The translations under genes and the position numbers were made by a program. From assembly GCA_903835235.1 (NCBI GenBank), contig CAILMF010000032.1, positions 1-44,992 of the forward strand: 44,992 nt of DNA, written 5' to 3'. This document shows, piece after piece, positions 21,889 to 42,535 of the stretch. The stretch's first letter is position 1; the number at the start of each line of letters is the position of its first letter. The DNA comes from an uncultured Rhodospirillales bacterium. Lineage in GTDB: Bacteria; Pseudomonadota; Alphaproteobacteria; Acetobacterales; Acetobacteraceae. The notes under the pieces are model-generated. The model was not told where the DNA came from. It saw only the letters and a program-made list of their open reading frames with translations, and did no database searches.

Positions 21889-23910
21889 GTGCTGACCGCA
21901 CTCTCCCTGGTGATCGGGGGGCTGCTGCTGCTGGGCCTGGCGGCGGTGCCGCTGGCGCGGCGGCCGGCCGGGGTGCGCGTGGTGCATGGCGGCTGCGTGG
22001 TGGCCTGCCTGCTGCTGGTGGTGCTGGCCGCCTGGGCGCTGCTGGCGGGTGGCGGCGGCGTGCTGGCGCTGCCCTTCGGGCCGCCCTGGGGCCGCGCGCT
22101 GCTGGCGCTGGATGGGCTTTCCGCCTGGTTCCTGCTGCTGCTCGGCGTCACCGGGGCCATTGCCTCGCTTTACGCCATGGCGCATCCGGCGGCGCAGCCC
22201 GGCGCGGTGCCGCCGTTTCCGCTGTTCCTGGCCGGCATGGCGATGGCGGTGGTGGCGGCGGATGCTTTTACCCTGATGTTCGGCTTCGAGCTGATGTCGC
22301 TGGCCAGCTGGGCGCTGGTGGCCGCCGACCACCAGCAGGCGGAAAACCGCCGCGCCGCGCGGCTTTACCTGATGATGGCGGCGCTTTCGGCGGCCTGCCT
22401 GGTGCCGGCCTTCGGGCTGCTGGCCGGGCATGCCGGCGGGTTTTCCTTTGCCGCCCTGCGCGCGGCGCCGCCCACGGGCTGGCTGGCCGGGGGCGTGCTG
22501 CTGCTGGGGCTGCTGGGGGCCGGCGGCAAGGCCGGGTTGGCGCCGCTGCATGTCTGGCTGCCGCTGGCCCACCCGGCCGCGCCCAGCCATGTCTCGGCGC
22601 TGATGTCGGGCGCCATGACTAAGGTGGCGCTGTATGTGCTGGCGCGGCTGCTGCTGGATTTGTGCGGCCCGGCGCAGCCGCTGTGGTGGGGCGTGCCGCT
22701 GCTGGTGGTGGGGGCGTGCACCGCCGTGCTGGGCGCGCTGCGCGCGAACCTGGAAGACGACACCAAGGTGCTGCTGGCGTGCAGCACCATCGAGAATGTC
22801 GGGCTGATCGCCATCGGGTTGGGCCTGGCGCTGGCCTTCCGCGGGGCTGACCTTGGCCCGCTGGCGGCGCTGGCGGCGGGGGCGGCGCTGCTGCACGCGC
22901 TGAACCATGGGGTGTTCAAGACGCTGCTGTTCCTGGTGGCCGGCAGCGTGCTGCACAGCGCCGGCAGCCGGCGGATCGACCGGTTGGGCGGCTTGATCCA
23001 CGCCATGCCGGTGACGGCCGGCTGTGCGCTGGTCGGCATTGCGGCGGCGGCCTCGCTGCCGCCGCTGTCGGGCTTTGCCAGCGAATGGTTGCTGTTGCAG
23101 GCGCTGCTGGCGGGCTGGCGCACCGGGGATATCGGCTTCCAGGTGCTGGCGGCGGCGGGCACCGCACTGGCGGCCATGGCGGCGGCGCTGGCGGCGGCGG
23201 CCATGGTGCGGCTGTTCGGCCTGGTCTTCCTGGGCCGTCCGCGCACCCCGCGCGGCGCCGGCGCGCATGAGGTCGGCCGGCTGGAGCGCTGGGCGCTGAT
23301 CATCCCGGCCGGGCTGACCCTGCTGCTGGGGTTGCTGCCCGGGCCGCTGCTGGGGCTGGCGCAGCCGGCGCTGGTGGCGCTGCTGGGGCCGGCGGCCATG
23401 GCGCCCGCGCGAGGCTTCGCGCTGCTGGGCGGCAATGGGGAGGTGGCGGCCTGGTACCTGCCGCTGGCGCTGCTGCTGGTATTGCTGGTGGCGGGGCTGC
23501 TGGTGGCGCTGGCGGTGCGGGCGCGGTCTCCGCTGGAAACGCGGCGCGGCCCGGTATGGAATTGCGGCTTCATCAACCCGCCGGACTTCCTGCCCTTCGG
23601 CGACCCGCTGAGCCAGCCGACCGCGGGCGGCATTGCCCAGCCGTTGCGGCGGATGCTTGGGACTTCTCTGCTGGGCGCGCGGGAGGCGGTGGACATGCCA
23701 CGCCCGGGCGAGACCCGGGCGGCAGGCTATACCGCCAGCTTCGCCGACCCGGCCTTCGGTTGGCTGGTGCTGCCCGCGGCGCGGCTGCGGGATGCGGTGG
23801 CGGCGCAGTGCGAAAAGCTGCGCGACTTCACCATCCGGCGCTGCCTGTCGCTGGGCTTCGGCACGTTGCTGGCGCTGCTGGCGCTGCTCGCCTGGCTGGA
23901 GGCGCATTGA
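21889..23910 (+). CDS. hyfB: Hydrogenase-4 type membrane subunit HyfB-like (Ehr complex)
   Basis: A 673-residue antiporter-like membrane subunit related to NuoL/M and HyfB, with about 14-16 hydrophobic segments. The conserved acidic helix FGFELMSLASW and the GGKAGLAPLHVWLPLAHP segment, with its channel lysine and histidines, are present, so ion translocation is plausible. The C-terminal WNCGFINPPDFLPFGDPLS is typical of HyfB. It starts with GTG at 21889. Its stop overlaps the next start (TGATG). It is the first gene of a six-subunit operon related to group 4 hydrogenases and complex I. Confidence 0.9.
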   Translation: MLTALSLVIGGLLLLGLAAVPLARRPAGVRVVHGGCVVACLLLVVLAAWALLAGGGGVLALPFGPPWGRALLALDGLSAWFLLLLGVTGAIASLYAMAHPAAQPGAVPPFPLFLAGMAMAVVAADAFTLMFGFELMSLASWALVAADHQQAENRRAARLYLMMAALSAACLVPAFGLLAGHAGGFSFAALRAAPPTGWLAGGVLLLGLLGAGGKAGLAPLHVWLPLAHPAAPSHVSALMSGAMTKVALYVLARLLLDLCGPAQPLWWGVPLLVVGACTAVLGALRANLEDDTKVLLACSTIENVGLIAIGLGLALAFRGADLGPLAALAAGAALLHALNHGVFKTLLFLVAGSVLHSAGSRRIDRLGGLIHAMPVTAGCALVGIAAAASLPPLSGFASEWLLLQALLAGWRTGDIGFQVLAAAGTALAAMAAALAAAAMVRLFGLVFLGRPRTPRGAGAHEVGRLERWALIIPAGLTLLLGLLPGPLLGLAQPALVALLGPAAMAPARGFALLGGNGEVAAWYLPLALLLVLLVAGLLVALAVRARSPLETRRGPVWNCGFINPPDFLPFGDPLSQPTAGGIAQPLRRMLGTSLLGAREAVDMPRPGETRAAGYTASFADPAFGWLVLPAARLRDAVAAQCEKLRDFTIRRCLSLGFGTLLALLALLAWLEAH

Positions 23911-24869
23911 TGGAGACGCTCGGCGGGCTGCTGACCCAGGCGCTGCATGTGATGTTGGTGCTGGTGGCGGCGCCGCTGGTGCTGGGCTGCACCCGCTGGC
24001 TGAAGGCGCGGATGATGGGAAGGCGCGGGGCCTCGCCGTGGCAGCCGGTGCGGGATTTTTCCAAGCTGCTGCGCAAGCGGCCGGTGCTGGCCGAGAACGC
24101 CTCCGCGGTTTCCGAGGTGGCGCCCTATGTCGGCGTGGTCGCCACGCTGGTGGCGGTGGCGATGGTGCCGAGCTTCGCGCAGGGCATGGCTTTCGCGCCG
24201 CTGGGCGACCTGTTGCTGGTGGCGGGCCTGCTGGCGCTGGCCCGGGTGGCGCTGGCGCTGGCGGGCATGGATGTCGGCACCGCCTTCGGTGGCCTCGGCG
24301 CCGCGCGGGAGATGAGCTTTGCCAGTTTTGCCGAGCCGGCCTTGCTGGTCTCGGTGCTGAGCTTCGCCATCCTGGCCGGCAGCACCAACCTGGACCTGGT
24401 GGCCGCCACCTTCCGCGATGGGCAACTGGGGCTGCGGGTTTCCCTGGCGCTGGCCGGCATTGCCATGCTGGCGGTCGCGGTGGCGGAGAATGCGCGAATA
24501 CCGGTGGACAATCCGGCGACGCATCTGGAGCTGACCATGGTGCATGAGGCGATGCTGCTGGAAAGCAGCGGCCGGCACCTGGCGCTGTGGGAGTTTCAGG
24601 CGGCGCTGAAGCTGGAGCTGTGGCTGGCCTTGTTGGCGGCGGTGTTCCTGCCGTTCGGCGCCGCGCCGGCCGGGGCGGGGCCGCTGGCCTGGGCGCTGGG
24701 GCTGGGCGCCTGGCTGGTGAAGATGGCCGGCTTCATCCTGGCGCTGGCGGTGTTTGAAAGCGCCATCGCCAAGATGCGGGTGTTCCGGGTGCCGGAGTTC
24801 CTCGGGGCTGCGCTGCTGCTGGCGCTGCTGGCGGCGGCGCTGCTGTTCGTCTCCACGGGGTTGGCGTGA
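23910..24869 (+). CDS. hyfC: NuoH/HyfC-like membrane subunit
   Basis: A 319-residue membrane protein of the complex I ND1/NuoH family. The loop AENARIPVDNPATHLELTM and the following HEAMLLESSG keep the acidic residues at the interface between the hydrophilic arm and the membrane arm. PWQPVRDFSKLLRK is the typical N-terminal cytoplasmic loop. The start ATG 23910 overlaps the hyfB stop. It links electron transfer in the HyfG-HyfI pair to the ion-pumping subunits. Confidence 0.93.
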   Translation: METLGGLLTQALHVMLVLVAAPLVLGCTRWLKARMMGRRGASPWQPVRDFSKLLRKRPVLAENASAVSEVAPYVGVVATLVAVAMVPSFAQGMAFAPLGDLLLVAGLLALARVALALAGMDVGTAFGGLGAAREMSFASFAEPALLVSVLSFAILAGSTNLDLVAATFRDGQLGLRVSLALAGIAMLAVAVAENARIPVDNPATHLELTMVHEAMLLESSGRHLALWEFQAALKLELWLALLAAVFLPFGAAPAGAGPLAWALGLGAWLVKMAGFILALAVFESAIAKMRVFRVPEFLGAALLLALLAAALLFVSTGLA

Positions 24870-24970
24870 TGGCGTGGCCCCCCACCCTCCCGCCGCGGGC
24901 GGGTCCCTCCCTGCCCCACTGGGCGAGGCAGGGCTGGGGCGCGGGCCGGCGCAAGCGGGGCAGCGCATGA
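24869..24970 (+). CDS. 33-residue overlapping small ORF between hyfC and hyfE
   Basis: The ATG at 24869 overlaps the hyfC stop (TGATG), and its TGA (24968-24970) overlaps the hyfE start (ATGA). The peptide is Pro/Gly/Arg/Trp-rich (MAWPPTLPPRAGPSLPHWAR at its start) and matches no family I know. It may be only a translational bridge that couples hyfC to hyfE across a 97-nt gap. Confidence 0.3.
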   Translation: MAWPPTLPPRAGPSLPHWARQGWGAGRRKRGSA

Positions 24971-25692
24971 CCTTCGGCCAACTTCCCTACGACATCGCGC
25001 ATCTGCTGGGCGGCGCCATGCTGCTGCTGAGTTTTGTCCTGCTCTACCAGCGGCGGGTGCAGGCGGTGATCAACGCCTTCGCCTGGCAGGGCGGCGTGCT
25101 GGCGCTGGCGGCGGCGTGGCAGGGGGCCATGCAGGGCGCGCCGGAGCTGTACCTGACCGCGGTCATCGCCTTCGTCGCCAAGGCGGTGCTGATCCCGCTG
25201 GCGCTGCGGGTCATCGTGCGGCGGATGAACCTGCACCGTTCCGTGGAAACCGCGCTGGGCATCGGCGCCAGCATGATGGCGGGGGTGGCGGTGGTGGCGC
25301 TGGCGATCCTGGTGGTGCTGCCGATCACCGCGGGCGCGCGGGCGATTGCGCGTGAGGACCTGGCCCTGGCGCTTTCGGTGGTGCTGCTGGGCATGCTGAT
25401 GATGATCACCCGGCGCAACGCCATCAGCCAGGTGGTGGGGCTGATGAGCCTGGAGAACGGGCTGGTGCTGGCCGCCGTGGGCGTGGCCGGCATGCCGCTG
25501 GTGGTGGAGCTTTCCACCGCGGCGCTGGTGCTGGTGGTCTTCGTCGTCGCCGGGGTCTTCGTGTTCCAGATTCGCGAGCGCTTCGACAGCGTGGATACCG
25601 CGGCGCTGGAGAGTCATCGCGGCGAGGGCGCCGGCGATGGCTGGCGGGGCGAGGGCGCGTCCGAGGCTCCGCGTGGCGGGGGGCAACCGTGA
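24967..25692 (+). CDS. hyfE: HyfE-like membrane subunit
   Basis: A 241-residue membrane protein. The NuoK-like part has about six or seven hydrophobic segments and the conserved glutamate in VVGLMSLENGLVLAAVG. The last about 25 residues (after FQIRERFDSVDT) form a hydrophilic Gly/Glu-rich tail longer than usual for HyfE. The ATG at 24967 overlaps the stop of the small upstream frame. The stop overlaps the hyfF start as TGATG. Confidence 0.88.
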   Translation: MTFGQLPYDIAHLLGGAMLLLSFVLLYQRRVQAVINAFAWQGGVLALAAAWQGAMQGAPELYLTAVIAFVAKAVLIPLALRVIVRRMNLHRSVETALGIGASMMAGVAVVALAILVVLPITAGARAIAREDLALALSVVLLGMLMMITRRNAISQVVGLMSLENGLVLAAVGVAGMPLVVELSTAALVLVVFVVAGVFVFQIRERFDSVDTAALESHRGEGAGDGWRGEGASEAPRGGGQP

Positions 25693-27134
25693 TGCCCTTG
25701 CCCTGGCTGGTGGTGTTCTTCCCCTGGGTCGGCGCGGCGCTGCTGATGGCGTTGCCGCGGCTGCGGCTCGCGGCGGCGGTCAATCTGGGTGTCTCGGCGG
25801 TCTCCCTGCTGCTGGCGGTGCTGCTGCTGGGCACGCCCCATGGCGAACAGGGCTGGACCCGGGTGGATGCGCTGAACCAGCCGCTGGTGCTGCTCTCGGC
25901 CATCATCGGGCTGACCACGTCGGTCTATTCCTATGGCCAGGTGGACGCCAAGGGCTTCGACCATTGGCGGTTGCGGGCCTATCATGGCGCCTACCAGATA
26001 TTCATGGGCGCGCAGGCGCTGGCGCTGCTGGCCGACAACATGGGCGTGATGTGGGTCGCGATCGAGATCGCCACCATGGCCAGCGTAACCATGGTGGCGG
26101 TGCATGGCACGCCGGCGGCCATGGAAGCCGCGTGGAAGTTTTTCATTCTCTGCGGCGTCGGCATTGCGCTGGCGCTGTTCGGCACCGTCATTCTGTACAT
26201 GGCGGCGCAGCCGGTGGTGGGGCATGGCGACAATGGCCTGTCCTGGGTCGCCTTGCGCGCGGTGGCGGCGCGCTGCGACGCCGGCCTGCTGAACCTGGCC
26301 TTCGTCTTCCTGCTGGTGGGCTATGGCACCAAGGCCGGGCTGGTGCCGCTGCATTTCTGGCTGCCGGATGCCGAGGCCGAGGGGCCTGTTTCCATCAGCG
26401 CGGTGTTGTCCGGCCTGTTGCTGAACGCGGCGATGGTGGCGGTGCTGCGCGCCAAGACCATCGTGGCGGCGAACCCTGAGGCGATTCCGCCCGGCCCCTT
26501 CCTGATGGCGTTGGGCCTGGCTTCCGTGCTGCTGGCGGCCTTTGCGCTGTGGCGGCGGCGGGATGCGCGGCGGCTCTTCGCCTGGTCCAGCATTCAGCAC
26601 ATGGGGCTGGCGGCCTTTGCGTTTGGGCTGGGGGGCCTGGGCGGCACCCTGGCGGGGCTGCTGCACCTGCTGGGGCATAGCCTGACCAAGTCGGCGGTGT
26701 TCTTTGGGGTCGGCCTGGCGACGCGGCTGAAGGGCAGCCAGAAGATCGCCGCCATCGGCGGGTTGGTGACCAGCCATCCGGCGTTGGGCTGGTCCCTGGT
26801 GGTGGCGATCGCCGCGGTGGCGGGCATGCCGCCCTTCGCGCTGTTCGCCAGCGAGTTTCTGCTTGTTGGGGAAACCGCCAGCCGGTTCTGGTGGTTGGCG
26901 CTGCCGCTGGGCCTGGGGCTGTTCATTGCCGTGGCGGCCAAGGTGAACGTGCTGCAACAGCTTTGCCTGGGCGATGCCACGCCAAATGCAGCCGGTCCGC
27001 CGCCGGGGCGGCTGGCCTTCGCCTCCACGCTGGGGCCGATCTGGGTGCATCTGGCGCTGGCGGCGGTGCTGGGCGCGGCCTTGCCGACGGGCGGCGCGGC
27101 GCTGCTGGCGCAGGCGGCGGAGATGCTGAAGTGA
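25692..27134 (+). CDS. hyfF: HyfF-like antiporter-type membrane subunit
   Basis: A 480-residue subunit of the NuoL/M/N family and the second putative ion-translocating subunit of the complex. Features are MWVAIEIATMASVTMVAVHG with its acidic helix, GYGTKAGLVPLHFWLPDAEA and HLLGHSLTKSAVFF. Start at ATG 25692, overlapping the hyfE stop; an in-frame GTG three bases earlier is possible. No HyfD-like subunit is present, so the complex appears to have two antiporter-like subunits. Confidence 0.92.
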   Translation: MPLPWLVVFFPWVGAALLMALPRLRLAAAVNLGVSAVSLLLAVLLLGTPHGEQGWTRVDALNQPLVLLSAIIGLTTSVYSYGQVDAKGFDHWRLRAYHGAYQIFMGAQALALLADNMGVMWVAIEIATMASVTMVAVHGTPAAMEAAWKFFILCGVGIALALFGTVILYMAAQPVVGHGDNGLSWVALRAVAARCDAGLLNLAFVFLLVGYGTKAGLVPLHFWLPDAEAEGPVSISAVLSGLLLNAAMVAVLRAKTIVAANPEAIPPGPFLMALGLASVLLAAFALWRRRDARRLFAWSSIQHMGLAAFAFGLGGLGGTLAGLLHLLGHSLTKSAVFFGVGLATRLKGSQKIAAIGGLVTSHPALGWSLVVAIAAVAGMPPFALFASEFLLVGETASRFWWLALPLGLGLFIAVAAKVNVLQQLCLGDATPNAAGPPPGRLAFASTLGPIWVHLALAAVLGAALPTGGAALLAQAAEMLK

Positions 27135-27156
27135 CCCGGGCTGCGGAGCAGCCACA

Positions 27157-28662
27157 ATGAGCGGCGCCGATGCCATTCGCGCCGGGCGGCCACAGGGCTG
27201 CCGGCCGCACCAGCGATACCTGCTGGAACCAGGCCAATGGCGCGCCCTGGTGGTGGCGTTGCGCGATGACCGCGCGCTGGAGCTGCTTTCCTTGTGGGCC
27301 GAGCCGGGCTTTGTCCACGCCGCCTTCCACCAGCCCAATGAGGGCGTGCTGCTGGCCAGCCTGGCGGTGGCGGAACGCAGCTACCCCGCGCTGTCCCCGG
27401 TGCGCGCCGGGGCGGTGCGGTTCGAGCGGATGATCCGCGACCTCTGGGGCCACCAGGCCGAGGCCGGCGTCGACCTGCGCCCCTGGCTGGACCATGGCCG
27501 CTGGCCGGTCACGGCGCCGATGTCGCCACGGCCGGTCGCCGTGACCACGCCGCCGCCGCAGCCGGAATTCCTGGCGGTGGAGGGCGAGGGGGTGCATCAG
27601 ATACCCGTTGGGCCGGTGCATGCCGGGGTGATCGAGCCGGGGCATTTCCGCTTCCATGTCCAGGGCGAGACGGTGGTGCGGCTGGAGGAGCGGCTGGGCT
27701 ACCTGCACAAGGGCACGCTTTCCCTGATGCTGGGCAAGAGCCCGCGGCTGGCGGCGCGCTTCGCGGCGCGGCTTTCCGGCGACAGCACCGTGGCGCATTC
27801 CTGGGCTTTTGCCAGTGCGGCCGAGAATGCGGTGGGGCTGGCGGTGCCGGCGCGGGCGGTGCTGCTGCGCGCCCTGGCGGCGGAGCTGGAGCGGGTGCAC
27901 AACCACCTGAACGACATCGGCTTCGTCTGCAACGACGCCTCCTTCGCCTGGCCGCATGCGCGCTGCGGGCTGCTGCGGGAAGGCGTGCTGCGGGCGGCGG
28001 CACTGGCCTTCGGGCACCGGCTGATGATGGACCTGGTGGTGCCCGGCGGCGTGGCGCGGGACCTGGCGCCGGGCGGCGCCGAAGCGATCCGCGCCGCGCT
28101 CGGCGCCGTGGTGGCGGCGCTGCCGGAGCTGGAACGGGTGTATGACAGCCATGCCAGCCTGCAGGACCGCGTGGTCTCCACCGGGCAGGTGATGCCGGAA
28201 CTGGCGGCGCGCTTCGCGGTGGGCGGGCATGTCGGGCGGGCCTCGGGCCGCGGGTTCGATAGTCGGAAACTGCCGGGCTATGCGCCGTACAACACCATGG
28301 CCTTCACCGTGCCGGTGCTGCAGGCCGGCGATGTCGATGCGCGCGTTCGCATCCGCCTGGCCGAGGTGCAGCAGAGCGCGGCACTGATGGAAAGCCTGCT
28401 GGCGCGGCTGCTGCCGGGGGAGACCAAGGTGGATTTTCCGCAGGCCGGTGGCGAGGGCGTGGGCCTGGTGGAGGCGTTCCGCGGGGATGCGCTGCACTGG
28501 GTGCAGCTGGATGATGGCGGGCTGATCCGCGCCATCTTCATGCGCGACCAGTCCTGGCTGCAATGGCCGCTGCTGGAAGCGGCGATCGAGGGCAACATCG
28601 TCGCCGACTTCCCGCTCTGCAACAAGAGCTTCAACTGCTCCTACAGCGGGGTGGACCTGTGA
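27157..28662 (+). CDS. hyfG: HyfG-like large subunit lacking Ni-binding cysteines (Ehr type)
   Basis: A 501-residue protein. The N-terminal about 170 residues are NuoC-like (RFERMIRDLWGHQAEAG); the rest is NuoD/hydrogenase-large-subunit-like (GPVHAGVIEPGHFRF, EERLGYLHKG). Group 4 [NiFe] hydrogenases have RxCGxCxxxH here, but this protein reads RLSGDSTVAH, with serine at both cysteine positions. The C-terminus has FPLCNKSFNCSYSGVDL instead of DPCxxC. A Ni-Fe site therefore cannot form, which places it with Ech-hydrogenase-related (Ehr) complexes of unknown substrate. It starts 22 nt after hyfF and ends overlapping the glyoxalase-fold gene. Confidence 0.93.
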   Translation: MSGADAIRAGRPQGCRPHQRYLLEPGQWRALVVALRDDRALELLSLWAEPGFVHAAFHQPNEGVLLASLAVAERSYPALSPVRAGAVRFERMIRDLWGHQAEAGVDLRPWLDHGRWPVTAPMSPRPVAVTTPPPQPEFLAVEGEGVHQIPVGPVHAGVIEPGHFRFHVQGETVVRLEERLGYLHKGTLSLMLGKSPRLAARFAARLSGDSTVAHSWAFASAAENAVGLAVPARAVLLRALAAELERVHNHLNDIGFVCNDASFAWPHARCGLLREGVLRAAALAFGHRLMMDLVVPGGVARDLAPGGAEAIRAALGAVVAALPELERVYDSHASLQDRVVSTGQVMPELAARFAVGGHVGRASGRGFDSRKLPGYAPYNTMAFTVPVLQAGDVDARVRIRLAEVQQSAALMESLLARLLPGETKVDFPQAGGEGVGLVEAFRGDALHWVQLDDGGLIRAIFMRDQSWLQWPLLEAAIEGNIVADFPLCNKSFNCSYSGVDL

Positions 28663-29006
28663 CGCTCAGCTTCGGCCCTGGCGTGCCGGTGCTGCGCAGC
28701 TTCGACGAGGCCCGCGCGCGCGCCTTCTACTGCGGGCTGCTTGGCTTCGAGGTGGATTGGGCGGAGCGGCCGGCGCCGGGTTCGCCGCTATACATGCAGG
28801 TCTCCCGCGGCGGCTTCGTGCTGCACCTCAGCGAGCATGATGGCGATGGCCGGCTGGCCGCCCGGCTGCGGATACCCGTGCATGGGCTGGGGCGGCTGCG
28901 CGATGAGATGCTGGCGCAGGGCTTGCCGCAAGACGACCCTGAGGAGGATGCGGTGACGGTGCACGACCCCTTCGGCAATACGCTGCACTTCGTGGAGCTG
29001 GGCTGA
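28659..29006 (+). CDS. Glyoxalase/bleomycin-resistance-fold protein within the hyf operon
   Basis: A 115-residue single-module VOC protein. RSFDEARARAFYCGLLGFEVDW, PLYMQVSRGGFVLHLSEHDG and the closing DPFGNTLHFVE follow the BleO/glyoxalase pattern. These proteins usually bind or sequester small ligands. The GTG start (28659) overlaps the hyfG stop (GTGA) and its TGA overlaps the hyfI ATG, so it is translationally coupled on both sides. A VOC gene between the large and small subunits is not part of known hyf or ech operons I can name. Its role is unknown: possibly a ligand chaperone, or a passenger. Confidence 0.85.
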   Translation: MTLSFGPGVPVLRSFDEARARAFYCGLLGFEVDWAERPAPGSPLYMQVSRGGFVLHLSEHDGDGRLAARLRIPVHGLGRLRDEMLAQGLPQDDPEEDAVTVHDPFGNTLHFVELG

Positions 29007-29527
29007 TGCTGTGGCCCAGCTTGGCGCGCGCGCTGTTCGGCAAGCCACTGACCGATGCCGGCCCGGCCGTGCCGGATGCCACGGTGGAGGCCCTGGCGCT
29101 GCGGCTGGACCAGGCGGCGCAGACCAGGCTGGGGCGCAGCCTTTCGATCCGGGAAGTCGACTGCGGCAGCTGCAATGGCTGCGAGCTGGAAGTGAACGCG
29201 CTGGCCAATGTGGCCTATGACATGGAGCGCTTCGGGCTGAAATTCGTGGCCAGCCCGCGCCATGCCGATGTGCTGCTGGTGACGGGGCCGCTGACCCACA
29301 ACATGCGCGAAGCCCTGCTGCGGGTCTGGGATTGCACGCCGGAGCCGAAATGGCTGGTGGCGGCCGGCGACTGCGCGGTGGATGGCGGCGTGTTCAAGGG
29401 CAGCTACGCCATTGCCGGCGGCATCGGCGAGGCGCTGCTGGTGGACCTGGTGATCCCCGGCTGCCCGCCGACGCCGACGCAGTTGCTGGAAGGATTGCTG
29501 GCGCTGCTGGAAGCCCAGGCTCGCTGA
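29006..29527 (+). CDS. hyfI: NuoB/HyfI-like iron-sulfur small subunit
   Basis: A 173-residue small subunit that should hold the N2-type [4Fe-4S] cluster. All four ligand positions are present: CGSCNGC (two cysteines of the CxxC type), the cysteine of AAGDCAVDGG and the cysteine of VIPGCPPTP. So the electron-transfer subunit is intact although the partner large subunit has lost its Ni site. It starts at ATG 29006, overlapping the glyoxalase-fold gene. Its stop codon is the first member of a 16-bp tandem array. No HyfH-like ferredoxin subunit follows. Confidence 0.93.
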   Translation: MLWPSLARALFGKPLTDAGPAVPDATVEALALRLDQAAQTRLGRSLSIREVDCGSCNGCELEVNALANVAYDMERFGLKFVASPRHADVLLVTGPLTHNMREALLRVWDCTPEPKWLVAAGDCAVDGGVFKGSYAIAGGIGEALLVDLVIPGCPPTPTQLLEGLLALLEAQAR

Positions 29528-29671: not shown

Positions 29672-29859
29672 GGGGGCAGACAGAGTAGCTGCCAGTCAGG
29701 CGACGACCTGCCGGGAATGTGGCCATCGCCAACGTCGCCCCTGAATGAGACAACGCGTCCAGCTTGCGCCACGGCTTCCTAACGGCGGATGGGAGCGGGC
29801 TTAACTCGCGGCAATGCGCGGGGCCTTTCGCGCCGGCGCGGCGCGGGCGAGAACGGCGC

Positions 29860-30978
29860 ATGGTGGACCCCGAGACCCTGAAGGCGATTGCCGCCGCCGC
29901 GCCGGCGCATGACCGCGACGCCAGCTTCCCCGCCGGCAGCATTGCGCGGCTGGGCCAGGCCGGCACGCTGGCGCTGACCACGCCGGCCGCCTGGGGTGGT
30001 GGCGGCGCCGGGCTGACCCAGGCGGCGCGGGCCGTGGCGGCGGTGGGTGGGGCCTGCGCCTCCACCGGGCTGGTGCTGGCGATGCAGTTGATCCAGCAGA
30101 AGCTGCTGCCGGAGGATGCCGGCTGGCCGCCGGCGCTGCGCGAGCGGATCGGCCGCATGGCCTCCACTGACGGCGCGCTGTGCAACACGCTGCGGTCAGA
30201 GGCGGCGCTGGGCGCGCCGACGCGGGGTGGCCTGCCGGAGACGGTGGCGCGACGCACTGCCGGTGGTTGGGCGCTGACGGGGCGGAAGACCTATTGCACC
30301 GGCCTGCCGGCGCTGCGTTGGCTGCTGGTCTGGGCGCGTACCGAGGAGGACGTGCCCCGCTGCGGCTACTTCCTGGTGGAAGCCGGCACGCCGGGGCTGC
30401 GGATGGCGCCGAGTTGGGACCATCTGGGGCTGCGGGCCTCGGCCAGTGACGACCTGGTGATGGAGGACGCGCCGATCCCGGCCGAGTATGCCGGGGAGCT
30501 GCGCCTGCCGGCCGGCTGGGCCGCGCTGCCGGATGCGCTGCTGGCCTGGCACGCGCTGCTGCCGGCCGCCGTGTATGGCGGCGTGGCGCGGGCGGCGCGG
30601 GACTGGCTGCTGGGGTTTCTGCGCGCGCGCACGCCGACGGCGCTGGGTGCACCGCTGGCCAGCCTGGCGCGGGTGCAGGAAGCGGTGGGCGGTATCGAGG
30701 AGAAGCTGCTGGCGCATGGCCGGCTGCTCGGCTCGGCCGCGGCGGCGGTGGATGCGGGGGCGCCGCCCAGCGGGGTGGAATCCGGCCTGCTGAAGCTGTC
30801 CCTGGCCGAGCTGGCGGTGCAGGTGGTGGAGGGCTGCGCCGCGTTGGCCGGCAACCATGCAATGGCGCGCCGCAACCCGCTGGAGCGGCATTGGCGGGAC
30901 GTGCTGTGTGCGCGCATCCACACGCCGCATGGGGATGCGGCGCGGGCGGCGGCGGGGCGGGCGCTGCTGTTGGGGTAG
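29860..30978 (+). CDS. Acyl-CoA dehydrogenase family protein (possibly DszC/SfnB-like)
   Basis: A 372-residue flavoprotein of the acyl-CoA dehydrogenase superfamily. It shows the N-terminal helical domain, the middle beta domain (GWALTGRKTYCTGLPALRW, SWDHLGLRAS) and a C-terminal helical domain ending NPLERHWRDVLCARIHTPHG. The RHWRD-type end is common in the group that includes the flavin-dependent monooxygenases DszC and SfnB, so oxygenase activity is as likely as acyl-CoA oxidation. The start was placed at ATG 29860 (MVDPETLKA), because the upstream frame looks like non-coding sequence. No fatty-acid genes are next to it. Confidence 0.78.
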   Translation: MVDPETLKAIAAAAPAHDRDASFPAGSIARLGQAGTLALTTPAAWGGGGAGLTQAARAVAAVGGACASTGLVLAMQLIQQKLLPEDAGWPPALRERIGRMASTDGALCNTLRSEAALGAPTRGGLPETVARRTAGGWALTGRKTYCTGLPALRWLLVWARTEEDVPRCGYFLVEAGTPGLRMAPSWDHLGLRASASDDLVMEDAPIPAEYAGELRLPAGWAALPDALLAWHALLPAAVYGGVARAARDWLLGFLRARTPTALGAPLASLARVQEAVGGIEEKLLAHGRLLGSAAAAVDAGAPPSGVESGLLKLSLAELAVQVVEGCAALAGNHAMARRNPLERHWRDVLCARIHTPHGDAARAAAGRALLLG

Positions 30979-40988: not shown

Positions 40989-41801
40989 ATGCCCCAGACC
41001 AAGCCGCGCGTCGCGCTCTTCGTCACCTGCCTGGTGGATCTCTATCGGCCCAATGTCGGCTTTGCCGCCATCAAGCTGCTGGAGGCGGCCGGCTGCACGG
41101 TGGAGGTGCCGCCCAGCCAGACCTGCTGCGGCCAGCCCGCCTTCAACACCGGGGACCGCGCGACCACGCGCGACCTGGCCCGCGCCGTGATCGACGCCTT
41201 CCTGCCCTACGACTACGTCGTGGCGCCCAGCGGGTCCTGCGCCGGGATGATCGCGCATCACTACCCCAGCCTGTTCGAGAACGACCCGCAGGGCCGCGCC
41301 CGGGCCGATGCGCTGGCCGCCAAGACGCATGAGCTGGTCAGCTTCCTGGTCGATGTGCGCGGGATGACCCAGGTGGCCGCCCAGTACGACGGCCTGGCCA
41401 CCTACCACGACAGCTGCTCCGGCCTGCGCGAGCTGGGGGTGAAGGCGCAGCCGCGCGCGCTGCTGGCCAGCGTGGAAGGCCTGGCGCTGAAGGAGATGGA
41501 GAATCCCGAGGTGTGCTGCGGCTTCGGCGGCACCTTCTGCGTGAAGTATCCGGACATTTCTACGCGCATGGTCAGCGACAAGACCGCTGATATCGCTGCG
41601 ACCGGCGCGGATACGCTGCTGGCCGGCGACCTCGGCTGCTTGCTGAACATGGCGGGGCGGCTGAAGCGGGAAGGCTCCCCGGTGAAGGTGCGCCATGTGG
41701 CGGAAGTGCTGGCGGGGATGACGCGCGACGTGCCGCCGCTGGGTGACGCCGTCGTGGCGGAAGCCGCGCCAAATGCCAACCTGGCCACCAGCGCGCCATG
41801 A
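40989..41801 (+). CDS. (Fe-S)-binding protein, LutA/YkgE-like (CCG domains)
   Basis: A 270-residue protein with two CCG domains. The first has SQTCCGQPAFNTG (C46, C47), the second HDSCSGLRELG and EVCCGFGGTFCVKY. These are the cysteine-rich motifs of LutA-type subunits that, with LutB and LutC, oxidise L-lactate, and of related heterodisulfide-reductase-like subunits. No lutB or lutC is adjacent. Instead its stop overlaps the start of a 2OG-Fe oxygenase gene (ATGA at 41798), which suggests a different partnership. Confidence 0.9.
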   Translation: MPQTKPRVALFVTCLVDLYRPNVGFAAIKLLEAAGCTVEVPPSQTCCGQPAFNTGDRATTRDLARAVIDAFLPYDYVVAPSGSCAGMIAHHYPSLFENDPQGRARADALAAKTHELVSFLVDVRGMTQVAAQYDGLATYHDSCSGLRELGVKAQPRALLASVEGLALKEMENPEVCCGFGGTFCVKYPDISTRMVSDKTADIAATGADTLLAGDLGCLLNMAGRLKREGSPVKVRHVAEVLAGMTRDVPPLGDAVVAEAAPNANLATSAP

Positions 41802-42535
41802 GCGCGCGCCCGCCGATTGCAGCGTTGCAGGCCGAGATTGCCCAGCACGGCTTTGCCATGCTGCCCGGCGCGCGGCTGGCGGGGTTGATGGGCGCCGCCG
41901 GCAGCGCCGAGCAGGTGGACGCCTTCGCCGCCAGCTGGGAACGGCTGGAGGTGGACAGCTTCATGGCCGATGGCGGGCGCTATCGGCGCCGGCGCATTGC
42001 CAATTTCACCGCCCGGGCCGGGGTGGCTGGCCATGTCCGCGGTGCGCATCGGCCGCATTTCCAGGCGGTGGTGCACAACACGCTGAATGGCGGGGTGGAC
42101 CGCTGGTTCGCGCCGGTGGAGGACGCCATCGGCGCCTCGGCCCCGGTGCAGGCGCTGCTGGGCCTGGGGCGGGAGGTGGCGGACAGCGTCAGGCCGGGCC
42201 AGGATTGGTTTGTCGAGATGCATCAATTCCGCATCGAGGCCGGGGCCGGCGCGCCAGGCTATCCGACGCCCGAGGGTGTGCATCATGATGGCGTGGACGT
42301 GGTGCTGATCGCGATGCTGGCGCGCACCAACCTGATGGGCGGCGAGACGCTGATCACCGACGATGCCGATCGCGAGCTGGCGCGCTTCACGCTGCTGGAC
42401 CGGCTGGACGCGGCGCTGGTGGATGATGCGCGCGTCAAGCACGGGGTGACGCCGGTGGGGCCGGCGGACATGTCGCAGCCCAGCTGCCGCGACGTGTTGG
42501 TGCTGACCTGGCGGGCGGGATTGCCGCCCGTCTGA
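41798..42535 (+). CDS. 2OG-Fe(II) dioxygenase family protein (2OG-Fe_Oxy_2)
   Basis: A 245-residue non-heme iron dioxygenase related to the family that includes L-isoleucine 4-hydroxylase. The metal triad is readable as H162-x-D164 in EGVHHDGVDVV and H215 in VKHGVTPVG, with R231 in QPSCRDVLVLTW as 2-oxoglutarate ligand. A free amino acid is a plausible substrate by family, not proven. It is translationally coupled to the LutA-like gene. Its stop codon is the first member of a 14-bp array. Confidence 0.87.
   Translation: MSARPPIAALQAEIAQHGFAMLPGARLAGLMGAAGSAEQVDAFAASWERLEVDSFMADGGRYRRRRIANFTARAGVAGHVRGAHRPHFQAVVHNTLNGGVDRWFAPVEDAIGASAPVQALLGLGREVADSVRPGQDWFVEMHQFRIEAGAGAPGYPTPEGVHHDGVDVVLIAMLARTNLMGGETLITDDADRELARFTLLDRLDAALVDDARVKHGVTPVGPADMSQPSCRDVLVLTWRAGLPPV

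Follow-up and report, generated by a model that had tools for sequence, protein, structure and literature searches.

Complexes of the Ech-hydrogenase-related (Ehr) type, encoded by ehrABCDLS, are described in later papers with citation of Coppi (2005) and Marreiros (2013). In the portions of the papers available here, they are presented as relatives of the group 4 hydrogenases that have no metal motifs, and they are assigned only a suspected function or none (PMC6349859, PMC10284858, PMC4378227, PMC10432482, PMC6688271, PMC7894505, PMC6728331). Many bacteria, among them aerobes, have Ehr complexes. The locus described here lies in a window of 44,992 nucleotides, the whole stretch of DNA that was analysed, from contig CAILMF010000032.1 of an uncultured Rhodospirillales bacterium in the family Acetobacteraceae. 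Positions 21889-29527 hold a complete six-gene Ehr operon in the order HyfB-C-E-F-G-I, with all genes in one direction. We consider it likely that this operon encodes a canonical Ehr complex, that is, a putative membrane-bound, redox-driven ion (probably proton) pump that is kin to formate hydrogenlyase and complex I and has no Ni-Fe centre. The part of the analysis most worth following is a set of relatives of this complex that have lost their pump charges.

Subunit identities were taken from Pfam and NCBIfam matches, with NCBIfam scores mostly under the curated cut-offs, and they bear out a sequence-only reading of this stretch that had named homologues of the same six subunits. The features of the operon are as follows (aa, amino acids; ORF, open reading frame).

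21889..23910, + strand: HyfB/EhrA-like membrane subunit of the antiporter type (673 aa, starting with GTG; PF00361 9e-45; hydrogenase 4 subunit B model 3e-181, under its curated cut-off; conserved charges E134, K214, K245, K344, E399)
23910..24869, + strand: HyfC/NuoH-like membrane subunit (319 aa; start overlaps the HyfB stop; charged residues conserved; PF00146 6.7e-31, scored on the longer ORF 23556-24869)
24967..25692, + strand: HyfE membrane subunit (start deduced from homologues; match under the cut-off to the hydrogenase 4 membrane subunit model, 6.4e-22)
25689..27134, + strand: HyfF antiporter-type membrane subunit (481 aa; PF00361 5.6e-44; conserved charges E126, K150, K215, K334, E389)
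27157..28662, + strand: HyfG/EhrL large subunit (501 aa; PF00346 8.1e-33, PF00374 8.3e-10; NuoC-like N-terminus fused to a NuoD/hydrogenase-like body without Ni-Fe ligands)
27769..27798, + strand: former RxCGxC motif of HyfG, R205-L-S-G-D-S-T-V-A-H214
28606..28659, + strand: former DPCxxC motif of HyfG, D484-FPLCNKSFNCSYSGVD-L501, where the protein terminates
28659..29006, + strand: VOC-fold (Glyoxalase_7) gene of 115 codons, starting with GTG (PF19581 4.7e-23, scored on ORF 28563-29006, which is longer)
29006..29527, + strand: HyfI/EhrS small subunit (PF01058 4.9e-31; one [4Fe-4S] site, C56, C59, C123, C153)

Every ORF of the operon is intact and gene ends overlap at several junctions. Antiporter-like and NuoH-like membrane subunits stand together in the one operon, one of the features by which Ehr complexes are recognised, and the locus also resembles described Ehr complexes (PMC4378227, PMC10284858, PMC10432482 and PMC6688271, each in its available portion) in its gene content and its hydrogenase-like large subunit without Ni-Fe motifs.

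The former Ni-Fe site of HyfG

Among solved structures, the E. coli formate hydrogenlyase/hydrogenase 4 (HycE/HycG, 7z0s), which has the same membrane subunit types, is the nearest to each of the two soluble subunits. HycE is the nearest solved relative of HyfG by sequence (phmmer 7.5e-50, profile 1.8e-78) and also by fold, as a Foldseek search of the PDB gave 7z0s_E at E 2.4e-29 for an AlphaFold model with a predicted local distance difference test score (pLDDT) of 83.9. When HyfG is aligned to HycE (7z0s chain E), RVCGIC becomes RLSGDS and DPCYSC becomes NCSYSG; the four Ni-Fe ligand positions of HyfG are S207, S210, S495 and G498, and all of the cysteines are replaced. The sequence-only reading had concluded from RLSGDSTVAH and the missing DPCxxC end that no Ni-Fe site can form, and the alignment upholds this: the window complex is no Ni-Fe hydrogenase. 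R205, S207, G208 and D209 are invariant in 81/81 HyfG sequences (80 loci and the window), and the serine replacement is therefore neither a chance event nor an assembly error. Across a wider set, position 207 is serine in nearly all sequences, alanine in loci L088 and L141, and cysteine in L154 and L228. In two alignments E160, G208, R442 and D484 are invariant, while R205 and D209 are invariant or nearly so; E160, R205 and R442, which align with a glutamate and arginines of HycE, are retained. Since HyfG ends where we take the mature, processed end of a hydrogenase to lie, no maturation protease would be needed.

Unlike formate hydrogenlyase, the window complex has no Ni-Fe ligands, and its operon is accompanied by no HycB/HycF-type ferredoxin subunit, HycI or HycH among the scanned window genes. 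HypD was not found in the whole host genome (5.97 Mb, 98.97% complete), HypD being the only hyp gene searched genome-wide, and a scan of 37 of the 42 genes predicted in the window found no hyp or HyfH-like gene. Both results accord with the earlier statement that the window holds no HyfH-like or maturation gene. HypD was likewise not found in three genomes of the same genus whose HyfG is 92-93% identical to that of the window. In a HyfG tree the group to which the window's protein belongs stands apart from Ni-Fe hydrogenases, from NuoD and from the mycobacterial Ehr-type protein; this tree does not include published Ehr reference sequences, leaves out an off-frame Acinetobacter NuoCD row and has the Mycobacterium row entered twice. 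The large subunits of Mbh (6cfw) and of the 6u8y complex, which we take to be Mbs, both from hyperthermophilic archaea, are homologous to HyfG (E 2e-51 and 4e-33), but Mbh is a Ni-Fe hydrogenase and 6u8y scores far lower than HycE. The available portion of one paper describes the M. tuberculosis Rv0081-Rv0087 operon as Ehr-like (PMC6728331). That type, represented here by a M. branderi plasmid (L087), resembles the window operon in that L087 has no Ni-Fe motifs, but it differs in its distinct branch, its motif RVEGIAS, a small subunit annotated as a ferredoxin and another gene order.

One alternative is that the complex is still a hydrogenase or a similar metalloenzyme, in which substitute ligands hold the metal, either oxygen ligands (S207, D209, S210, D484, S495, D500) or C488/C494. 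Conserved polar residues do replace the thiolates, the two relatives named above have cysteine at 207, and a different, non-Hyp metal is possible. However, the four ligand cysteines are gone, HypD is missing from the host, and a HyfG match at 1e-32 was found in 123/150 genomes of the window's family, as opposed to HypD in only 24/150 (23 above cut-off). A few of the 123 are not Ehr, including at least G325, a Ni-hydrogenase by motif, and G368, for which the one match listed is NuoD-like. We regard this explanation as very improbable. C488 and C494, two cysteines of the C-terminus, were rejected as replacement ligands, as they align off the ligand positions and are present in only 63/80 and 59/80 sequences, respectively.

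Cluster site and ion path in canonical complexes

The four cluster cysteines of HyfI (C56, C59, C123 and C153) are kept in 55/55 canonical members, and the ion-path positions tested in HyfB, HyfC and HyfF are conserved, just as the sequence-only reading had stated for the HyfI cysteines and the charged residues of the membrane subunits. Over a set of 160 loci, 105 are readable for all five subunits, and 93 of these keep at least four of the five HyfB charges together with all four HyfI cysteines. Among those 93, HyfF has 5/5 charges in 91, and HyfC has 8/8 in 90 of the 91 that are covered. A HyfB count of 4/5 is seen in ten of the 93, and in six of these (25-31% identity) the HyfB query seems to be aligned to HyfF. 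The remaining readable loci are ten with 0/5 HyfB charges, L138 with two, and L230, a Ni-hydrogenase by motif, with three. L138 comes from another bacterial family and has 2/5 HyfB and 2/5 HyfF charges, yet 8/8 HyfC residues, possibly an independent partial loss of pump charges.

Because the cluster site, the pocket and the ion path are all tightly conserved in the canonical form, a redox-driven pump is the simplest reading, and on these residues we hold it quite probable that the window complex works as one. As the operon has no NuoI/HycF-type subunit, the HyfI [4Fe-4S] cluster would take its electrons from a small soluble carrier, most likely ferredoxin or flavodoxin; we find one of these as the donor plausible, while stopping just short of favouring it. 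In the pocket that holds Ni-Fe in hydrogenases, the electrons would then pass to a small molecule and reduce it, be it quinone-like or some other polar organic compound, a quinone-type acceptor being the more tentative proposal of the two. This reduction may move charge along HyfC and drive ion transport through HyfF and HyfB. A new substrate, as suggested earlier, is possible. Complex I has homologous subunits (NuoB/D/H/L/M/N) with NuoH-type and antiporter-type charged residues. The window operon differs from complex I in that it has no NADH module and no NuoI, its quinone-ligand residues are not conserved, and the host has its own, separate complex I.

Pump charges in a derived clade

Some genomes of the same family also carry the same operon with very diverged sequence, and 40 further regions were examined. 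In a HyfG tree of 68 sequences, which excludes L230 and eight rows with short HyfG matches, 33 diverged loci (20 genus labels) form one clade inside the window's family with an SH-like support of 0.892. Residues in these derived loci were counted from tblastn/blastp alignments, since iteration of hidden Markov models was unreliable for the most diverged membrane subunits. None of the five HyfB pump residues is kept in any of the 17 clade loci whose alignment covers all five positions; 8 of these have a letter at every position and 9 have a gap or gaps, which were counted as loss, and the HyfB register is uncertain below ~35% identity. The other clade loci, 13 with no HyfB hit at E 1e-6 and 3 with partial hits, were not counted. 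Some loci have conservative replacements, namely D at 134 (L213) and R at 214 (L194, L216). In a direct alignment, the L220 HyfB is 42.9% identical to that of the window (673 columns, E 3e-147), and E134, K214, K245, K344 and E399 are replaced by L, L, V, V and L, respectively. By contrast, all five charges are present in the control L228, which is 47% identical. The clade also appears to have lost the ion-pumping charges of HyfF and HyfC. An alignment-free count of charges within hydrophobic stretches gave a mean of 4.4% in 15 canonical loci vs 2.7% in 43 further loci, with overlapping ranges; the 43 include canonical and hydrogenase loci, and two without a membrane ORF count as 0.

The redox side of the complex fares differently in these loci. 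HyfI is readable in 27 members, 25 of which keep all four cysteines, while L215 and L216 keep one, and R205 of HyfG is kept in 33/33. The genomes G386 and G430, from one further genus and not in the tree, have a split Ehr complex, with HyfG and HyfI alone at L218 and L219 (4/4 HyfI cysteines and 8/9 pocket positions) and HyfB, C, E and F in a separate cluster (L218 with L261, L219 with L262). The L261 and L262 HyfB proteins are 44% and 42% identical to that of the window (E 2e-131 and 8e-123) and have 0/5 charges, with a letter at all five positions, and their HyfF also has 0/5. The pocket motif is lost in many members of the clade. This loss probably came after that of the pump charges, since L221-L224, L218 and L219 have no pump charges and still have most of the tested pocket residues.

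Since most of the cluster side survives in the clade and the ion path is gone, electron transfer rather than ion antiport seems to be the core activity. We lean slightly towards the view that the derived clade is an Ehr form whose redox side is mostly kept and whose pump charges were shed, the core task being an electron transfer that is useful without energy conservation. The clade thus looks like a naturally uncoupled relative of complex I, in which natural evolution has parted the redox half of such a machine from its pumping half, whereas the window is, judged by its residues, the canonical, coupled form. If so, the donor and acceptor should be findable in organisms of the derived clade, where pumping cannot mask the phenotype. 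No account of a pump-less Ehr form was found in the one library of literature searched.

The opposite division of labour would be a cation/proton antiporter resembling Mrp that works independently of redox chemistry and serves pH or stress homeostasis, with HyfG and HyfI only structural. The antiporter-type subunits fit such a role. Papers seen in part suggest pH homeostasis for Methylacidiphilum (PMC6688271) and place a complex-I-like cassette of a Marinobacter copper island in a copper-stress context (PMC8233155). Universal stress proteins are annotated near three Ehr operons, and cluster ligands are lost in L215, L216 and L157. This explanation does not account for the invariance of the HyfI ligands in canonical members, and the derived clade, which lost the antiport residues and kept the cysteines in nearly all readable HyfI, is the opposite of what it predicts; we judge it unlikely.

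We give hardly any credence to a further alternative, that the locus is a decaying, non-functional relic of a hydrogenase. The loss of many conserved residues in a related clade of the same family would suit it, but the window ORFs are intact, starts and stops overlap at several junctions and the tested residues have been retained. Even for the derived clade, the ratio of nonsynonymous to synonymous substitution rates (dN/dS) of likely operon ORFs is mostly 0.08-0.46 over seven derived-locus pairs, with subunits assigned by position and two or three pairs having no usable dS for single ORFs. The two highest values, 0.53 and 0.69, fall in stop-to-stop ORFs, and overlapping ORFs taken as shadows have dN/dS >1. 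There are thus signs of purifying selection in the clade.

Several points weigh against the redox-driven pump and the kept redox side. In the portions of the literature consulted, no donor, acceptor or activity is reported for Ehr complexes; the sequence-only reading had placed this operon in that known family and called the donor and acceptor not established, and gene content and literature agree with it. The pocket region of the HyfG model (148-166, 168-184, 496-501) has pLDDT <50, and pocket geometry comes from the alignment alone. In this alignment the complex-I-type quinone site is not preserved: I159 and G208 stand at the positions of the quinone ligands, which we take to be His38 and Tyr87 of Thermus Nqo4, and any quinone would for this reason bind differently. 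The derived clade itself shows, as far as residues tell, that pump residues can go without loss of the complex. In addition, cluster ligands are missing from L215, L216 and L157; in L157, a locus of the same family that is outside the tree owing to its short HyfG match, the fourth HyfI cysteine went together with the pump charges. Lastly, three members of the clade (L198, L204 and L226) have no readable HyfI in the examined stretch and detract from a clean picture of a kept redox side.

Other details of the clade are as follows. Ehr operons without pump residues, mostly with the HyfI cysteines, are exemplified by L220, L221, L222, L223, L225, L212, L194, L155, L156 and L206. L215 and L216, whose HyfI lacks three of the four cysteines, yet keep the TGD motif in HyfG. 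L206, L207 and L231 belong to one genus and have HyfI, cysteines intact, a few kb downstream of HyfG, and in L206 and L207 a gene that by eye resembles a TonB-dependent receptor follows HyfG. Five of the derived-clade genomes have a single PF01058 gene.

Host genome, distribution and neighbourhoods

A formate dehydrogenase (FDH)-Ehr complex, in which a cytoplasmic FDH oxidises formate and feeds the Ehr complex, was proposed for Riflemargulisbacteria (PMC6349859) and suggested for Geobacter, where Ehr subunits are more abundant on formate (PMC7894505), both papers being available in part. An Ehr operon on a Methylovirgula plasmid (L084), flanked by an F-type ATPase cluster, also adjoins fae, the gene for a formaldehyde-activating enzyme, and the host genome of the window has FdhD and FDH-alpha-like proteins. 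However, its only PF01512 protein is encoded in the region of complex I, on a different contig from the Ehr operon, which implies that there is no FdsB-type NAD-linked FDH. Of its seven PF00384 proteins, one falls within that region. The best FDH-alpha-like protein, which is below the model cut-off, has by eye a twin-arginine-like N-terminus, and its gene precedes one that is ferredoxin-like and one that is membrane-protein-like; by eye we take it for a periplasmic quinone-linked enzyme. Nor is there a positive association with FdhD, which occurs in 20/47 genomes with the Ehr type vs 155/252 without it, and an FDH-like cluster was not among the recurrent neighbours of the operon in 60 loci. 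We consider an FDH-Ehr complex very unlikely for this locus. It should be noted that PF01512 is ambiguous as an FDH marker, since its match in L145 coincides with an RnfC-like gene. With complex I and with neither HypD nor the NuoF-like subunit of an NAD-linked FDH in its host, the window is a clean canonical case; this counts against both the hydrogenase and the formate explanation for this Ehr type.

The 47 genomes come from an even sample of the phylum, in which 47/299 have a HyfG homologue at ≥40% identity and >300 bits, fragment G132 being excluded. HypD is present in 19 of them (absent in 28/47) vs 53/252 others, and neither HypD nor FdhD is required by the Ehr type. Indeed, the window operon is not unusual; it is an ordinary, intact member of a known family. 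The complex is also present in the ~0.9-Mb genome G162 (locus L137), which has no NuoD or PF01512 match and in which no separate NuoH was found; its two NuoH-type matches are partial, one of them on the Ehr contig, and resemble the two ends of one split gene.

Around 60 dereplicated loci, no recurrent gene for an electron donor or partner was recognised in blastp gene clusters, which were mostly read by eye and considered when shown, in ≥3 loci and beyond the operon. The recurrent neighbours are TRAP-transporter genes, which reflect synteny among relatives of the window, a broad cluster of transporters, ORFs that appear to be shadows, helix-turn-helix regulators (by eye, in 7 and 5 of the 60 loci) and various genes found in 3-7 loci. 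The Ehr cassette looks self-contained.

The VOC-fold gene, which had no place in the earlier gene account, fills the space from HyfG to HyfI, where it overlaps the HyfG stop at one end and the HyfI start at the other, and it sets the window apart from described Ehr complexes. The spacing between HyfG and HyfI exceeds 200 bases in 25 of the 77 loci where both genes are readable; of these wide gaps, 7 give a VOC-like reading directly and 4 others carry a different small ORF, the window being counted in all but the last figure. At other loci the gap holds a different small ORF or no gene.

Downstream of HyfI, an Acyl-CoA-dehydrogenase-like (SfnB-like) gene at window 29764-30978 occurs in only 3/81 searched loci, the window counted. 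In L145, a Si-specific NAD(P) transhydrogenase gene (L145:11551-12957) begins 5 bases after HyfI and precedes what by eye is an Rnf-like operon; this arrangement was not seen in L147 and L149, the only loci of the same bacterial family compared. The surroundings of plasmid-borne operons vary, and a Variovorax plasmid has two Ehr-type operons. Farther along the window, a gene at 40989-41801 encodes a protein with two CCG (cysteine-rich) domains and overlaps a 2OG-Fe dioxygenase gene at 41798-42535.

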